From NCBI RefSeq assembly GCF_001422205.1, contig NZ_LMMJ01000009.1:248001-312000 (forward strand): a stretch of DNA of 64,000 nucleotides, read 5' to 3'. Shown in pieces: positions 24,461 to 64,000 of this stretch; position 1 is the first letter of the stretch, and every line of letters begins with the position of its first letter. The position numbers were made by a program, and so were the translations under genes. This stretch comes from Curtobacterium sp. Leaf261. GTDB taxonomy: Bacteria; Actinomycetota; Actinomycetes; Actinomycetales; Microbacteriaceae. The notes below the pieces were generated by a model that saw only the letters and a program-made list of their open reading frames with translations, was not told the origin of the DNA and did no database searches.

Positions 24461-24517
24461 TCACCCCGGGTGACAGCGCCCCGGGTGACGCGCCCCGGGT
24501 GACGTCATCCCGGATGA
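24461..24517. promoter_or_regulatory. Four 14-bp repeats upstream of the transsulfuration operon
   Basis: Units of 14 bases read CACCCCGGGTGACA, then GCGCCCCGGGTGAC twice, then GTCATCCCGGATGA. The outer ones are palindromes (TCACCCCGGGTGA, TCATCCCGGATGA). They cover the expected -35 position and upstream of the -10, so they look like an operator array. Confidence 0.5.
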
Positions 24518-24551
24518 TCCGCGCATCCCACGGTCGCGGGACGGTGCGGGA

Positions 24552-24599
24552 GACGGACGGGAGGCGCGGTGCGGGGCTGCACCGTGCCTCCCGTCCGTC
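24552..24599. terminator. GGACGGGAGGC palindrome 3' of the MscS-like gene
   Basis: 21-base arms (GACGGACGGGAGGCGCGGTGC and its complement with one G-U) around a 6-base loop. It lies 23 bases after the stop of the channel gene, so it is the likely terminator of the cyclase-channel transcript. Confidence 0.75.
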
Positions 24600-24622
24600 A
24601 GGTGGTCACGCAGTGACCGCGC

Positions 24623-26044
24623 TCAGGACCGGACCGCGAGCGTCGACTGCGCGGTGACGACCTCGGTGATCTCGGACCGTCGGCGTTCGATGACGTCCCC
24701 GATGTCCCGCGCGAGCTTCGGCGACCGGCGCACGATCGCGTCGAGCACGTCGACCGGCACGACGAGCACCGCGACCTCGGTGAGGGCGTGCGCCGAGGTC
24801 ATCAGCGCCTCGCGCGTGAGCGCGGTCTGTCCGACGTAGTCGCCGGCCTCCACACGGCCGACCGGCAGCGCTGCGTCGTCGAGCGGCACACGGAGCTCGA
24901 CGCTGCCGGCGAGCACGAACCGGACCGCGTTGGGGATGTTCCCCACGCGGATGATCGTCTCGCCCGCCGCGTAGCGCTCGAGGCGCACGACCGGTTCGAG
25001 CGCCGAGGCGTCGTCACCGGTGAGGTACAGCGTCGGTGCCACCGCGGCCACCGAGGCGCTGATCCGCTCCGGGGTGATGAAGTCGTCGGTGGTGTCGCCG
25101 TCGAGGCCGAGGCCGGCGCGACGGGCGGCGTACCAGAGCCACAGGCGGAAGGTGGCGAGCGCGTCGGCCTCGATCGCGGGGCCGCGCACCTCGAAGGTCA
25201 GCTCGAAGGTCGGACCCCCGACGGGCACCGCGGTCGGCGTCGTCCCCGGGTAGCGCTGCGGGAGCTCGTTCGCGACGCGCTGCAGGAGTGCGATCACGGC
25301 GGCCGGCGGGTCGTCGGTGGTGAACGTCACGCTCGTCGTGACCGAGAACGTCCCACCGCCGCGGCTGAGGTTGGTGAACGATGCCCCGGCGAGCGAGGAG
25401 TTCGGCATGATCAGGATGCCGTTGCCGGTGTCGATGTGCACGGCACGCCAGTTCACCTCGACGACCCGGCCGCGCGCGCCGCCGGCGTCGAGCCAGTCAC
25501 CGAGTCGGAACGGCTGCTCGAACAGCAGGAAGAGCCCGGCGATGACGGGACCCACGGCGGACTGCAGCGCGAGACCGATGACGAGCGACCCGACCCCGAG
25601 CGCCGTGAAGATCCCGCCGACGTCGGCGCCCCACACGAGCTTGAAGACGAGCGCCAGGCCGAGCGCGATGAGCACGATGCGGCCGATGTCGACGAAGATC
25701 GACGGCAGCTTCTCGCGCCAGGACCCCTGTCGGGCGTTCGTGAACAGCGCCACGTTGACACCGTTCAGCACGAACACGATCACCAGGAAGCCGAGCACCG
25801 TCGCGATGATCTGGCTCACCACGGGCTGCTTCGGCTGGACCGCCTGGGTGACCTGGACGCTCAGGATGAGGATCGCGACGAGCGGCACGATCATGTTCCG
25901 GAGCAGGCTGATGATCTTCCAGACGGCGTTGCCGCGGCGCTGGAGGTTCGACTGCAGCTCGGTGAGGACGAGCAGGACGACCGGCAGGCCGATGACGACG
26001 ATGAGCGCCGGCCAGAACCAGGACTGCTGCCAGAACGGGGTCAT
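24623..26044 (-). CDS. MscS-family ion channel with C-terminal cyclic-nucleotide-binding domain
   Basis: 473 residues. Membrane segments lie at about 10-28, 45-65, 77-100 and 120-137, and the pore helix TM3 at about 143-178 ('LGVGSLVIGLALQSAVGPVIAG', then 'EQPFRLGDW'). The MscS beta domain follows ('GRVVEVNWRAVHIDTGNGILIMPNS'). Residues about 350-440 form a cNMP-binding fold ('RYAAGETIIRVG', 'VRFVLAGSVELRV', 'GDYVGQTALT'). This is the architecture of bacterial cyclic-nucleotide-gated MscS channels. At the phosphate-binding cassette the usual Gly-Glu is Gly-Gln406 and the usual Arg before Ser-Ala is Thr416, so ligand or affinity may differ. Its ATG overlaps the cyclase stop in ATGA. Confidence 0.9.
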   Translation of the reverse strand: MTPFWQQSWFWPALIVVIGLPVVLLVLTELQSNLQRRGNAVWKIISLLRNMIVPLVAILILSVQVTQAVQPKQPVVSQIIATVLGFLVIVFVLNGVNVALFTNARQGSWREKLPSIFVDIGRIVLIALGLALVFKLVWGADVGGIFTALGVGSLVIGLALQSAVGPVIAGLFLLFEQPFRLGDWLDAGGARGRVVEVNWRAVHIDTGNGILIMPNSSLAGASFTNLSRGGGTFSVTTSVTFTTDDPPAAVIALLQRVANELPQRYPGTTPTAVPVGGPTFELTFEVRGPAIEADALATFRLWLWYAARRAGLGLDGDTTDDFITPERISASVAAVAPTLYLTGDDASALEPVVRLERYAAGETIIRVGNIPNAVRFVLAGSVELRVPLDDAALPVGRVEAGDYVGQTALTREALMTSAHALTEVAVLVVPVDVLDAIVRRSPKLARDIGDVIERRRSEITEVVTAQSTLAVRS

Positions 26045-28338
26045 GATGCCCGCCGATCGAGCTTCCACACGCGCTGCGGACCGCCCTGCGTCTCGACGGT
26101 GCCCTCCTCGTGCATCGGGACGGTGTCGCCGAGCTGGTCGACGACCCGCTGCGTCGCGAACACCCCCGGTGTCGGCGCGATGCCCTGCACCCGGTAGGCG
26201 AGGTTCACCGCGTCGCCCCACATGTCGTAGACCGCACGCGAGGGGCCGACGAGGCCGCTCGTGACCCGACCGGTGTCGAGGCCGGCGCGGAGACCGACCG
26301 AGGAACCGTGCTGGGCGTTGAAACGCTCGAGGATCGTCTGCAGCTCGTTCGTGAACTCGACCATCCTCCGGGCGTAGTCGACCCTCGGGACCGTCAGCCC
26401 ACAGCTCGCGAGGTACCCGCTCCTGGTGGACCGGACCCGCTCGATGCCGATGCGGGCGGCGGCCTCGTCGAACGACCGCCAGATGCCGTTCACCAGCTGC
26501 AGACCGTCGGACGCCCCGAAGCCCTTCGAGAAGTCGTCGATCCCGATGATGTCGGCGAAGATCACCGCCACGTCCTGGTGCTCCTCGGCGATGTTCTCGT
26601 CGCCCTGCTTGTACCGCTTCGCGACCTCCACGGGCATCATCGTCAGCAGCAGCTGGTCGTTCTGCCGACGCTGGTCGTCGAGCAGGTCCTGCTTGATCTT
26701 CAGGCTGCGGCTCATGTCGTTGAACGCGAGGCCGAGGTCGCCGATCTCGTCGCCCGGCTTGGCCGCCACCTCGACCCCGATGTCGCCCGCGGACACCCGG
26801 TTGACCGCGGTCTGCAGCCGTCGGATCGGTCGCACGAACACCTGGGCGAGCAGGAGTGCGAGCAGACAGACGAGCACGATGATGCCGACGAGCGACAGCC
26901 CGAGGGTCCTGGTGAACGTGTCCACCGGCTGGAACGCCTCGCTCGTGTCGACCTGCGCGACGATCACCCAGTGCAGGCCGTCGACCTCGACCGGGGCGTA
27001 CGCCGACAGCGTCTCCCTGCCGCGGTAGTCCGACGTGATGACGGTGCCGGTCTTCCCCTGCAGTGCCCTCGTGACCGGCGTCGTGGTGACCGACTGCCGG
27101 AGGATGCTGCTCTTGTCGCGCACCTGTTCACGGGCGTCCGCCGGGGCCTCCCCCGCGCTGATGACGTCCTGCTGGTACTGCTTCGGGTGCTCGACGAGCT
27201 GGCGCGACGTCGACCGCATCGTGCGGTCGCGGCCGACCAGGTAGGACTCGCCGGTGTTGCCGAGCCCGTCGGACTTCCACCCCTGGTTCCCGGTCATCAC
27301 CGCGTTGATGGTCTCTGTCGGGACCTGCACCGCCAGCACGCCGATGATCTGCCCGTTGTCGCCCACCGGCGAGAACACCCAGGCGGTCGGGGCCCCGAGC
27401 GACGGGGTGTACGCCTCGAAGTCGGTCGCGGCGTAGGCGTCCGTGCTCGTCAGCTGCAGTGCCTTCTGGTAGCCGGACGCCAGGTTCGAGTCCCGGTAGG
27501 GCCCGGTCTCCACGTTCGTGCCGAGGTCGGGGCCGGAGTACGCCGAGTAGACCACGTCACCGGTGGTGTTGAGGAGCAGGACGTCCTCGTAGCCGAGCTG
27601 ATCGACCTGCTCCCGGAAGTAGTCCTGGTACTCCGCGTGCGCTGCGGACCACGCGCTGCCGTCTCCGGCGTCGTCGGTCGCGAGGGACTTGTCGTAGTCG
27701 TCGAACGGCGCGGTGTACTTGCTCTGCAGGTAGGTCTGGGCGTTCGAGGTCGGGGTGAACTGCTTCGGGTCGGCGGTCGAGGCGGTCGCCTTGTCGAGCT
27801 GCGGGACGAACTGGTCCGAGTAGTAGTTCGCGACGCTGCGTTGCTCGGCGGCCGTCGGGTTCTCGTCCTGCAGCGCGGCGAACCCGCTCGTGAACGCCTT
27901 CGTCGCACCGATCGCGGACTGGTTGCGGCTGTCGAGCACGATCGCGCCGCTGATGTCCGAGAAGGTGCGCTCGATCTCGCGCGCCCGGGACTCGCGGAGG
28001 CTCGTGACCTGCTGGAACGCCGCGTCCTGCAGGGAGTTGCGGCCGTTGACGTAGCCCACCGCACCGACGACGAGTGCCGCGAGGATGCTCACCGCCAGGA
28101 GCATGATCAGGAGCTTCGACTGGATGTCGAGCACGCCGGTCGTCCGGAACGCACGCCAGCGGCCGGTGCGGCGCGGTGCGTCCTCGATGACCCGGGGGCC
28201 GGACTGCTGTCCGTCAGAGCCGGATGTGGGCGGGATGGGGTCGGTCTGGCCGACCGCGGTGCGGAGGTCGTCGCCTCCCGGTGCTGGTGCGGGACCGGAG
28301 GCGGGCTGGTGTTGCGGCTGCTGCGGGGGGACGGTCAC
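26041..28338 (-). CDS. Membrane sensor nucleotide cyclase (Cache-HAMP-class III cyclase)
   Basis: 765 residues from GTG 28338 (GGGAGC upstream; the ORF to 28455 is a Cys/Arg-rich extension). The Pro/Gln-rich N-terminus is cytoplasmic. TM1 is at about 77-97, an extracellular double-Cache-type sensor at about 98-475, TM2 at 478-502, HAMP at 503-552 ('RPIRRLQTAVNRV', 'DEIGDLGLAFNDM') and a class III cyclase domain at about 585-750. Metal Asp596 is in 'VIFADI', and the transition-state Asn712 and Arg716 are in 'WGDAVNLAYR'. The second metal Asp of the usual 'KTIGD' is Ser640 in 'RVRSTRSGY', and the purine-binding Lys is Arg. Activity is therefore uncertain. It is translationally coupled to the cNMP-binding channel, its likely target. 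Confidence 0.88.
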   Translation of the reverse strand: MTVPPQQPQHQPASGPAPAPGGDDLRTAVGQTDPIPPTSGSDGQQSGPRVIEDAPRRTGRWRAFRTTGVLDIQSKLLIMLLAVSILAALVVGAVGYVNGRNSLQDAAFQQVTSLRESRAREIERTFSDISGAIVLDSRNQSAIGATKAFTSGFAALQDENPTAAEQRSVANYYSDQFVPQLDKATASTADPKQFTPTSNAQTYLQSKYTAPFDDYDKSLATDDAGDGSAWSAAHAEYQDYFREQVDQLGYEDVLLLNTTGDVVYSAYSGPDLGTNVETGPYRDSNLASGYQKALQLTSTDAYAATDFEAYTPSLGAPTAWVFSPVGDNGQIIGVLAVQVPTETINAVMTGNQGWKSDGLGNTGESYLVGRDRTMRSTSRQLVEHPKQYQQDVISAGEAPADAREQVRDKSSILRQSVTTTPVTRALQGKTGTVITSDYRGRETLSAYAPVEVDGLHWVIVAQVDTSEAFQPVDTFTRTLGLSLVGIIVLVCLLALLLAQVFVRPIRRLQTAVNRVSAGDIGVEVAAKPGDEIGDLGLAFNDMSRSLKIKQDLLDDQRRQNDQLLLTMMPVEVAKRYKQGDENIAEEHQDVAVIFADIIGIDDFSKGFGASDGLQLVNGIWRSFDEAAARIGIERVRSTRSGYLASCGLTVPRVDYARRMVEFTNELQTILERFNAQHGSSVGLRAGLDTGRVTSGLVGPSRAVYDMWGDAVNLAYRVQGIAPTPGVFATQRVVDQLGDTVPMHEEGTVETQGGPQRVWKLDRRAS

Positions 28339-28491: not shown

Positions 28492-28640
28492 GAGCAGCTC
28501 CGTCCGCGGGCAGCTCGGTCCCGCAGGCAGCTCGGTCCCGCAGGCAGCTCGGTCCCGCAGGCAGCTCGGTCCCGCGGGCAGCTCGGTCCCGCAGGCAGCT
28601 CGGTCCCGCGCGCAGTTCGGTCCCGCAGGCAGTTTCGTCC
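28492..28640. repeat. Eight to nine 17-bp tandem repeats
   Basis: GGCAGCTCGGTCCCGCA repeats from 28509 to 28627 with single-base changes and with degenerate copies at each edge. The block lies between the ABC-exporter stop and the cyclase start. The whole 28339-28676 stretch has no gene. A CATCAC-rich segment at 28440-28480 may hold the cyclase promoter, but no clear pair of hexamers is seen. Confidence 0.9.
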
Positions 28641-57227: not shown

Positions 57228-57491
57228 CCCCGTTCCCTCGTTGGGGTGTTCTGAACACGGCGGTCCAGTGCGAACACGCGGATGTGGGTGTTCCGGATGG
57301 ACGCGCGTGTGCAGGACACGGCGCGTGTGCGGGACACGGACTGGAGGCGCGGCGCGGGTCCGCCCCGCCGGCCCGGCCGGGCGCGTGTGCAGGACACGAA
57401 CGGGAGGCTCGGCCCGGGTCCGCCTCGCAGGCCCGGCTCCGCAGTCGGCCCGGCCCGGCGCGGCCCGATGCATGTGCAGGGCCCGCGCGGG
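57228..57491. repeat. Repeat cluster between the aminotransferase and murB
   Basis: No gene. It holds GGTGTTCTGAACACG (57246, the 44385 family), CGCGTGTGCAGGACACG three times (57304, 57323, 57381), GGACTGGAGGCGCGG (57338) and GAACGGGAGGCTCGG (57398) of the palindrome family, and GGTCCGCC(C/T)CGC(C/A)GGCCCGGC twice. The genes on both sides end here, so it acts as a convergent-end spacer. Confidence 0.8.
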
Positions 57492-62525: not shown

Positions 62526-64000
62526 GCTGATGCCTCCGGGCGGTCGTCCTGCGCGGTCACCAGCGAGCGCCAGACGCGCCGCCGCTCGGCCTGTCGGACC
62601 GGGTCGGCGACGGGTGCGGCCGCGAGCAGCATGCGCGTGTACGGATCGGTCGGCGCGTGCAGCACCTGCTCGGCGGGCCCGCGCTCCACGACGTGGCCGG
62701 CGCGGAGCACCACGACCTCGTCGGCGAGCTGTCGGACGACCGCGAGGTCGTGGCTGACGAGCAGGCACGCGAACCCGAACTCCTGCTGCAGTGTCGACAG
62801 CAGCTCGAGCACCGTGCGCTGCACCGTGACGTCGAGGGCGCTCGTCGGCTCGTCCGCGATGAGCAGTACCGGTCGGAGCGCGAGGGCCCTCGCGACCGCG
62901 ACGCGCTGTCGCTGCCCACCGGAGAGCTGGTGCGGGAACCGCTCGGCGAGCGACGGGTCGAGACGCACCGCTTCGAGGAGCTCCGACACCCTGGCGCTCC
63001 GGGCGTCCTCGTCGAGATCGGTGTGCAGGCGGAGCGGTTCGCCGATGCTCCACCCGACGCTCGCCCGCGGGTTGAGCGACGACGCCGGGTCCTGGAACAC
63101 GTACCCGATGCGGGAGCGGATCGCGCGGAGTCGGCGGCGGCCGGCGTGCCGCAGGTCGGTCCCGGAGACTTCGACGGTCCCGGCGACGACCGGGACGAGG
63201 CCCGCGAGCGCCCGCCCGATGGTCGACTTGCCCGAACCGGACTCGCCGACGAGCCCGAGCACCTGGCCGGCACGGATCTCGAGGTCGATCCCCGACACCG
63301 CGGGACTCCCCCGCCGTCCGGCGTACGAGATGGCGACGTCCGACATCCGGACGACGACGTCGCCGGTCGCGACCGCCTGTGGGTCGGCATCCGACCGGGA
63401 GGCGCGGCCACGGTCCTCCAGTCCGGTCGCGACCACCTGTGGGTCGGCATCCGACCGGGAGGCGCGGCCACGGTCCTCCAGTCCGGGAACCGCGTCCAGG
63501 AGCTCGCGTGTGTACGCCTCGCGCGGCGACGCGAAGAGGTCGGGGGCGCTCCGCGCCTCGACCGCGACGCCCCGGCGCATGACGAGGACGTCGTCGGCGA
63601 CGTCCGCGACCACGCCCATGTCGTGGGTGATGAGGAGCACGGCGACGCCGCGGTCGCGGCACAGGGTCCGCAGCAGGTCGAGGATGCCGGCCTGCACCGT
63701 GACGTCGAGCGCGGTCGTCGGCTCGTCCGCGATGAGCGCGACCGGGTCGTCCGACAGTGCCATCGCGATCATCGCGCGCTGGAGCTGCCCGCCGGAGAGC
63801 TCGTGCGGGAACGCCCGGGCGATCCGCTCGGGGTCGTCGATGCCGGCCGCCGTGAGCAGCTCCGCGGTCCGCGCCGCGACCTGCCTCGTGGGGATGCGGC
63901 CGTGATGGGTCCGCACCGCCTCGCCGATCTGCGCGCCGATGCGGAGGACCGGGTTGAACGACCCCATCGGCTCCTGGAACACGGTGCCGATGCCGGCTCC
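62522..64000 (-). CDS. Fused double ATPase of an oligopeptide ABC importer (5' end outside window)
   Basis: About 492 residues are visible; the N-terminus with the first Walker A lies beyond 64000. Domain 1 shows the Q-loop 'TVFQEPMGSFNPVLRIG', signature 'LSGGQLQRAMIAMAL', Walker B 'ALIADEPTTALDVTVQ' and 'LLITHDMGVV'. Domain 2 is complete: Walker A 'GESGSGKSTIG', 'FQDPASSLNPR', 'LSGGQRQRVAVARALAL', 'LLIADEPTSALD', 'LVSHDLAVV' and the oligopeptide-type C-terminal 'DPYTRMLLAA'. It is a DppD-DppF fusion. The linker (63365-63484) contains a 60-bp exact tandem duplication carrying the GGACGGGAGGC-like palindrome. Confidence 0.93.
   Translation of the reverse strand, partial: GAGIGTVFQEPMGSFNPVLRIGAQIGEAVRTHHGRIPTRQVAARTAELLTAAGIDDPERIARAFPHELSGGQLQRAMIAMALSDDPVALIADEPTTALDVTVQAGILDLLRTLCRDRGVAVLLITHDMGVVADVADDVLVMRRGVAVEARSAPDLFASPREAYTRELLDAVPGLEDRGRASRSDADPQVVATGLEDRGRASRSDADPQAVATGDVVVRMSDVAISYAGRRGSPAVSGIDLEIRAGQVLGLVGESGSGKSTIGRALAGLVPVVAGTVEVSGTDLRHAGRRRLRAIRSRIGYVFQDPASSLNPRASVGWSIGEPLRLHTDLDEDARSARVSELLEAVRLDPSLAERFPHQLSGGQRQRVAVARALALRPVLLIADEPTSALDVTVQRTVLELLSTLQQEFGFACLLVSHDLAVVRQLADEVVVLRAGHVVERGPAEQVLHAPTDPYTRMLLAAAPVADPVRQAERRRVWRSLVTAQDDRPEASA
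63365..63484 (-). repeat. 60-bp in-frame tandem duplication in the ATPase linker
   Basis: Units 63365-63424 and 63425-63484 differ at a single base. Each contains GACCGGGAGGCGCGGCC...GGTCCTCCAGTCC of the dispersed palindrome family and adds 20 residues between the two ATPase domains. Confidence 0.9.

Follow-up and report, generated by a model that had tools for sequence, protein, structure and literature searches.

The DNA analysed here is a stretch of 64,000 nucleotides from Curtobacterium sp. Leaf261 (contig NZ_LMMJ01000009.1, positions 248,001 to 312,000 of the forward strand), referred to as the window. Two overlapping genes on its reverse strand form the subject of this study (Table 1). 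The upstream gene encodes a cyclase-like protein in which an extracytoplasmic Cache sensor is followed by HAMP and then by a class III nucleotide cyclase domain, and the downstream gene encodes an MscS-family channel that ends in a cyclic nucleoside monophosphate (cNMP)-binding-like domain. This arrangement, including the ATGA overlap, had been proposed in a sequence-only reading of the window and is borne out by coordinates, strand and Pfam matches. The channel combines an MscS beta domain with transmembrane helices and matches YnaI and MscS, which places it in the MscS superfamily. Its C-terminus has a cNMP-binding fold, as in the bCNG (bacterial cyclic nucleotide-gated) channels, and the cyclase protein has a class III cyclase fold; both proteins show intact folds in predicted models, with a mean pLDDT (predicted local distance difference test) of 82 for the channel. 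Because a strong hairpin follows the channel gene (region 24500-24622, z = -5.99 by RNA folding, with equal stability in 0 of 200 shuffles), the two genes look like one unit with a putative shared transcription end. Among the matches listed, the nearest cyclase relatives by name are mostly Curtobacterium proteins, 67-70% identical, and the closest match reaches 90%.

Table 1. Features of the cyclase-channel locus, in window coordinates.
Feature	Position	Strand	Details
Cyclase-like protein P0001, Cache-HAMP-class III cyclase type	26041..28338	-	765 amino acids, GTG start
dCache_1 extracytoplasmic sensor domain, residues 244-461	26956..27609	-	Pfam 46.9 bits, cut-off 45
HAMP domain, residues 496-546	26701..26853	-	Pfam 51.1 bits
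Class III cyclase domain (Guanylate_cyc), degenerate, residues 584-757	26068..26589	-	Pfam 92 bits, cut-off 21.9
R636 codon, purine-recognising Lys position	26431..26433	-	alignment to Rv1625c
S640 codon, second metal Asp position	26419..26421	-	alignment to Rv1625c
ATGA overlap, channel ATG start and cyclase TGA stop	26041..26044	-	4 bases; sequence
MscS-family channel P0002 with C-terminal cNMP-binding-like domain	24623..26044	-	473 amino acids; translation, Pfam
MscS beta domain (MS_channel_2nd), residues 167-228	25361..25546	-	Pfam 66.5 bits
cNMP-binding-like domain without cassette Glu/Arg, residues 356-440	24725..24979	-	Pfam cNMP_binding 42.2 bits, cut-off 27.5
Q406 codon, ribose-binding Glu position	24827..24829	-	Glu in 0/120 pairs
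Strong hairpin 3' of the channel gene, candidate transcription end for both genes	24552..24599	-	RNA fold

A genome scan confirmed 365 loci with such genes, of which 80 were returned and read; in 79 of these the channel lies directly downstream of the cyclase. A further 46 channel places all have the cyclase directly upstream. Together with the window, the 79 loci and 46 places give 126 pairs, 120 of them distinct, and the residue counts below refer to these 120 pairs unless stated otherwise. The set includes one locus whose channel is shortened in the phosphate-binding cassette (L045) and one with a shortened cyclase frame (L093). Protein searches contributed the best 120 of 1247, 2794 and 2503 matches, and column counts for listed relatives are drawn from these: 120 cyclases plus the window protein (121), and 119 channels plus the window protein (120).

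The cyclase domain of the window protein aligns to the solved cyclase domain of Rv1625c without gaps in the region of R636 and S640; in Rv1625c, a Lys recognises the purine and two Asp residues bind metal. As the sequence-only reading had stated, Arg stands at the purine Lys position (R636) and Ser at the second metal Asp position (S640), and D596, N712 and R716 are kept; D705 is kept as well. In the pairs, column 636 contains Arg in 117, His in 3 and Lys in none. The second metal Asp is present in 2 pairs and missing from 118, and no column adjoining 640 carries a conserved Asp. The first metal Asp column is Asp in 93 pairs, Glu in 26 and Asn in 1, and is thus changed in 27. Both metal Asp residues occur together in a single pair (L125), so the other 119 have an incomplete metal site; L125 itself has Arg for Lys and lacks Asn712 or Arg716. 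The transition-state residues Asn712 and Arg716, both present in the window, are found in 63 and 85 pairs, respectively, and all six catalytic residues coexist in none. E633 and D705 are each invariant (120/120), and Y642 and W707 are nearly so. Listed cyclases including the window protein have R636 in 121 of 121 and Asp at 640 in five; these five have the first Asp as well, but all show Arg in place of the Lys and none has both Asn712 and Arg716. The 120 homologues listed by a further search, mycobacterial wherever they are named, all have R636, with Asn (109) or Asp (2) at column 640 and Gln at column 716 in 105. The replacement of Lys by Arg is not diagnostic alone, because a Microbacteriaceae cyclase unlinked to a channel (L139) has both metal Asp residues yet Arg at the Lys position.

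In cNMP-binding domains, a Glu and an Arg within the phosphate-binding cassette usually hold the cyclic nucleotide. The Glu position of the window channel is occupied by Q406, in agreement with the sequence-only reading. The absence of the Arg, reported there at Thr416, also stands, though its column is either 414 or 416 depending on a short alignment gap. The cassette Glu is found in 0 of 120 pairs, column 406 being Q, L, S, V, I, H, M or T. Arg occupies column 416 in none and column 414 in one (L045, the channel of which is shortened exactly there). Sporadic Arg residues occur within columns 413-418 in 31 pairs (one in 30, two in 1, none in the other 89); in the putative Arg columns of the channels, T, A, V, S or L predominate. 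T410 is present in 111 pairs and R411 in 113, and the cassette segment 405-411 has a mean major-residue fraction of 0.84 versus 0.51 in the rest of the cNMP domain. Column 406 of the listed channels with the window protein is Q in 71, L in 41, M in 3, E in 2, I in 2 and H in 1; the two with Glu are P0163 and P0165. The same changes in cyclase and channel recur in Microbacteriaceae, mycobacteria and an Arthrobacter. As judged from these alignments, the residue changes are family features, beyond chance.

The pair is also tightly coupled in genomes. A start codon permitting the 4-base overlap exists in 61 of the 120 pairs, and 56 more have one within 30 bases of the cyclase stop, where spacing is taken from the possible start nearest that stop, a choice that favours close spacing. 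We searched 120 Microbacteriaceae genomes with the channel model and obtained matches in 30: in 17 the match spans the full length (E < 1e-150), and in the other 13 it is weak and covers a part of the model. PF00211 occurs in 20 of the 120 genomes, namely the same 17, each with a single copy adjoining the channel, and three without the channel. In this sample the pair is inseparable in 17 of 17 genomes, and always adjacent. No further class III cyclase was found in the 17 (PF00211, E <= 0.001), so these genomes offer no candidate to complete a shared active site. Fourteen of them have no other cNMP domain above the Pfam cut-off, the exceptions being G041, G075 and G079; G110 has a second, partial match below the cut-off, and in G090 the cNMP domain of the channel itself is missed by Pfam. 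The window genome (99.1% complete) has one PF00211 protein, one PF00027 protein and two MscS-type proteins, and a GGDEF search of it returned none. The earlier idea of a locally closed circuit fits because the pair supplies the only class III cyclase and the only cNMP domain found in the window genome.

Beyond the family, 394 genomes of the class contain the channel in 30 (E <= 1e-25), nine of them Microbacteriaceae and 21 in one genus, which its named loci suggest is Mycobacterium in the broad sense. These 30 genomes hold 33 channel places, all with E < 1e-150. Among 296 genomes of the phylum, two further strong channel matches (G587, 219 bits; G537, 183 bits) and a partial one (G652, 64 bits) were observed, and from the phylum matches these three were fetched. 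In G587 and G537 (L143, 3872-9833; L144, 3034-9004) the channel is flanked by two different degenerate Cache-HAMP-cyclase genes. The G652 contig (L145) begins inside the channel gene and has one cyclase-like gene downstream. All three channels are without the cassette Glu. The first metal Asp is absent from all five cyclases, and thus none of these chains supplies both metal ligands; the second Asp is present in both cyclases of L143 and in that of L145, and is replaced by Ser in the upstream and by Glu in the downstream cyclase of L144. Degenerate cyclases flanking a channel are easier to reconcile with a receptor assembly than with an enzyme.

Three sets of related proteins serve as contrasts. 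Four rhizobial cyclases (Sinorhizobium, Ensifer and Pararhizobium; L085-L088) have the same full-length architecture and score 549-577 bits against the pair model, with best-segment identities of 30.6-33.2% over 87% of the query, but they keep the Lys, both Asp, the Asn and the Arg. The channel model (E <= 1e-5) finds no match within 5 kb of any of the four, and the annotation of three of the neighbourhoods agrees. Three Microbacteriaceae cyclases without a channel also keep both metal Asp residues, with Arg at the Lys position in one and Asp in one. Finally, among three alphaproteobacterial MscS-cNMP channels with no such cyclase nearby, two have the Glu without an obvious Arg and one is without the Glu. 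Loss of Glu or Arg alone is therefore not special to the pair.

Both genes are under constraint. Omega, the ratio of nonsynonymous to synonymous substitution rates, lies at 0.31-0.60 over 12 comparisons, which covered both genes at 6 of the 80 loci; the bias of synonymous sites in such GC-rich genomes makes these values approximate. Mean distances are 0.445 for the cyclase domain, 0.447 for HAMP, 0.525 for Cache and 0.60 for the cNMP domain, the most variable part of the pair, and 42 of 206 cyclase domain columns have one residue in at least 95% of sequences. In a tree of 27 cyclases, the 18 pair members group together with full support. The root of this tree is a drawing midpoint, so that one loss of catalysis looks the same as several. 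The proposal that the two proteins changed together thus holds in the sense that both sets of changes are joint in nearly all pairs; as a timed event, it goes beyond what the tree demonstrates, and the three alphaproteobacterial channels with no cyclase beside them are likewise without an obvious Arg.

P0303, a Mycobacterium tuberculosis protein of 730 amino acids, is probably Rv2435c, to judge from its length, and Rv2434c is presumably its channel partner. P0303 is a homologous Cache-HAMP-cyclase altered at the same positions (R at 636, N at 640), and it is one of two M. tuberculosis-named homologues among the matches listed, the other being P0318. In an alignment, eleven mycobacterial homologues other than P0303 share 41-45% identity with the window cyclase. 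Rv2435c is described as an adenylate cyclase of the cyclic AMP (cAMP) network with a double Cache domain in an excerpt of PMC4822843, and is placed in a mammalian-type group in an excerpt of PMC3961136. A 2004 survey (PMC2447327) names both Rv2435c and Rv2434c, and the survey may contain an earlier notice of the pairing or of the substitutions. The parts are thus individually known, and the M. tuberculosis homologue is already catalogued as a cyclase. Of the titles and abstract openings listed in literature searches, subscription papers aside, none treats the two proteins as a non-catalytic receptor-channel system.

The pair was compared with three known systems. The bCNG proteins (Caldwell 2010; Malcolm 2012) are reportedly MscS-superfamily channels with a cNMP-binding domain. 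The window channel likewise has an MscS core followed by a cNMP-binding domain, but channels of the pair differ in having neither the cassette Glu nor a fixed Arg, and in having a cyclase-like partner at nearly all loci read. Pycsar systems consist of a pyrimidine cyclase with an intact metal site and a PycTM or PycTIR effector. They act against phages and place the cyclase gene beside the effector gene (PMC11224242, in part). The window pair resembles them in that a cyclase adjoins an effector with a cNMP domain, and it gives weak matches to PycC (15.7 bits over 54 residues) and PycTIR (29.4 bits), but it differs in its incomplete metal site, its Cache-HAMP sensor and its MscS pore. Membership in Pycsar was rejected: the second Asp is absent, and the effector matches cover only the cNMP domain, the rest being an MscS channel. 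In KCNH channels, a cNMP-like domain is contacted directly by a PAS domain (PMC7515569, excerpt). These channels (EAG, ERG and ELK) show a cNMP-like domain under direct domain contact, but they are potassium channels with a PAS partner and serve as a comparison of working principle only.

We give about an even chance to a reading in which the cyclase domain serves as a non-catalytic regulator of the MscS channel, most probably by contact. The extracytoplasmic Cache domain would sense a signal, and HAMP would relay it to the cyclase-fold domain, where cyclic nucleotide would no longer be made. The cyclase-fold domain would then contact the cNMP-binding-like domain of the channel, its MscS beta domain or both, and this contact would raise or lower the chance of channel opening. 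Use of the cyclase domain as a contact output module would be an economical reading, by analogy with the PAS domain acting on KCNH cNMP-like domains. The sequence-only reading had named two options, a different ligand or a pair that works through direct contact while catalysis is reduced. We lean towards contact, of a non-catalytic kind, because the metal site is almost always incomplete, because the first Asp is changed in many pairs, and because degenerate cyclases border the channel on one or both sides outside the class. Control by contact appears more likely than control by cyclic nucleotide. We hold with somewhat less than even confidence the wider proposal of a widespread actinobacterial system, mycobacteria included, in which sensor cyclase and channel have both shed the messenger, gating is by contact, and relatives outside the class have two flanking pseudo-cyclases.

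Several observations weigh against contact by a non-catalytic domain. E633, D705, R636 and the cassette segment 405-411 are conserved, as expected of pockets that still bind something, and both metal Asp residues persist in L125 and in the five listed cyclases, as does the Glu in two listed channels. A Subtercola metagenome-assembled genome has a pair-type cyclase on one contig (L030), where the 0.7 kb that remain show no recognisable channel; a full pair is present on a second contig of this assembly (L028). Residue-level coevolution does not clearly link the cyclase domain to the cNMP domain beyond expectation, with 4 versus 3.9 expected among the top 50 mutual-information pairs and 53 versus 38.9 among the top 500. 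The largest excesses in the top 50 link the MscS beta domain to the cyclase domain (12 versus 5.5) and to HAMP (6 versus 2.0). By partial correlation of distance matrices, the cNMP domain has the cyclase domain as its first-ranked partner in each of the four sets, but bootstrap support is not firm, with only 73-117 of 150 in agreement. Neither coevolution analysis is used as support for contact.

An altered small-molecule circuit, in which the cyclase domain has another nucleotide or nucleoside as its product or ligand, the altered channel pocket reads it and the ligand changed jointly, is unlikely, and is the rival that we take most seriously, because pocket residues are conserved, coevolution is indecisive, and trypanosome protein kinase A (PKA) has switched to nucleosides without the Arg. 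The conserved pocket positions are E633, R636, D705 and W707 in the cyclase and T410 and R411 in the cassette. Trypanosome PKA regulatory domains in which the phosphate Arg is replaced by V, T, A or N bind nucleosides (PMC6440977, excerpt); the Arg columns of the pair channels hold a similar range of residues, and the Foldseek list includes trypanosome PKA structures. A changed ligand is harder to reconcile with the scarcity of complete metal sites and the frequent change of the first Asp, with a Glu position that shows no constant replacement, and with a cNMP domain that varies more than any other part of the pair. Residual ordinary signalling, with low-rate synthesis of cAMP or cyclic GMP (cGMP) and weak binding by the channel, appears improbable. 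The window cyclase does keep D596, D705, N712 and R716, a few relatives keep both metal Asp residues, the public names read class 3 adenylate cyclase, and the excerpt of PMC6440977 reports that a mammalian PKA phosphate-Arg mutant retains cAMP activation with a 5-fold loss. Against this, N712 and R716 are each missing from many pairs, no pair has all six residues, column 716 is mostly Gln in mycobacterial homologues, and the only class III cyclase and cNMP domain found in the window genome are those of the pair. A metal site incomplete nearly throughout, a Lys gone from every pair and the failure to find another class III cyclase in the 17 genomes all make ordinary synthesis of cAMP or cGMP unlikely.

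A heterodimeric enzyme, in which the degenerate cyclase is a half-site completed by another cyclase, would fit outside-class loci with two cyclase-like genes. Mammalian cyclase C2 halves are also without the second metal Asp. Mycobacteria have several cyclases, as the 2004 survey indicates (PMC2447327). The explanation is nevertheless very improbable, as another PF00211 protein was found in none of the 17 pair-bearing Microbacteriaceae genomes and the outside-class cyclases all lack the first metal Asp. We consider it slightly less probable still that the pair is decaying or that the genes are functionally unrelated neighbours. The variability of the cNMP domain, the L030 cyclase without a recognisable channel, the shortened L045 channel and the shortened L093 cyclase frame would agree with decay, but the pair is present or absent as a whole in the 17 genomes, the cyclase lies directly upstream at all 46 further places, the predicted folds of the window proteins are intact, and the new residues are near-invariant. 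Decay was rejected on the omega values, on these near-invariant residues and on a cyclase domain that is no more variable than HAMP. By comparison with these alternatives, non-catalytic regulation of the channel remains the reading that we favour.

A few further features were noted. At one Leifsonia aquatica locus (L026, 4815-8519) a single open frame runs through cyclase and channel, with an odd cyclase end. It was set aside as a natural gene fusion bearing on contact, since a frameshift is likely from a cyclase end unlike that of its relatives. Plasmid matches in Vibrio, Salinivibrio and Tritonibacter (H61-H69; Tritonibacter is H68) cover the sensor-HAMP part, have no cyclase domain and are about 25-32% identical. 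The sensor module seems to be shared with chemoreceptors, because the Salinivibrio and Tritonibacter matches are annotated as methyl-accepting chemotaxis proteins. Between an upstream ATP-binding cassette (ABC) transporter gene and the cyclase start lie 8.2 tandem copies of a 17-base unit (28494-28632), a 15-base piece of which is absent from all 145 fetched loci. Five copies of the 12-base motif CGGGAGGCGCGG lie in the window (20294, 24558, 51210, 63396 and 63456; 0.21 expected from shuffles), and the copy at 24558 sits within the hairpin 3' of the channel gene. The window (1-64000) has 34 tandem-repeat rows in all; one is a 60-base unit at 63363-63486 (98% matches), and another lies at 57320-57437.

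On sequence evidence, the adenylate cyclase label, found in public names and applied to Rv2435c in the excerpt of PMC4822843, is probably wrong for most of this group. The sole class III cyclase found in each of the 17 pair-bearing Microbacteriaceae genomes belongs to the pair, which makes clean tests possible in non-pathogens. The residue changes suggest an old messenger circuit that may now act by another route, perhaps direct touch. If contact is true, the class III cyclase fold would have been reused as a channel regulator, and the pair would connect an extracytoplasmic Cache sensor directly with a channel of the turgor type.

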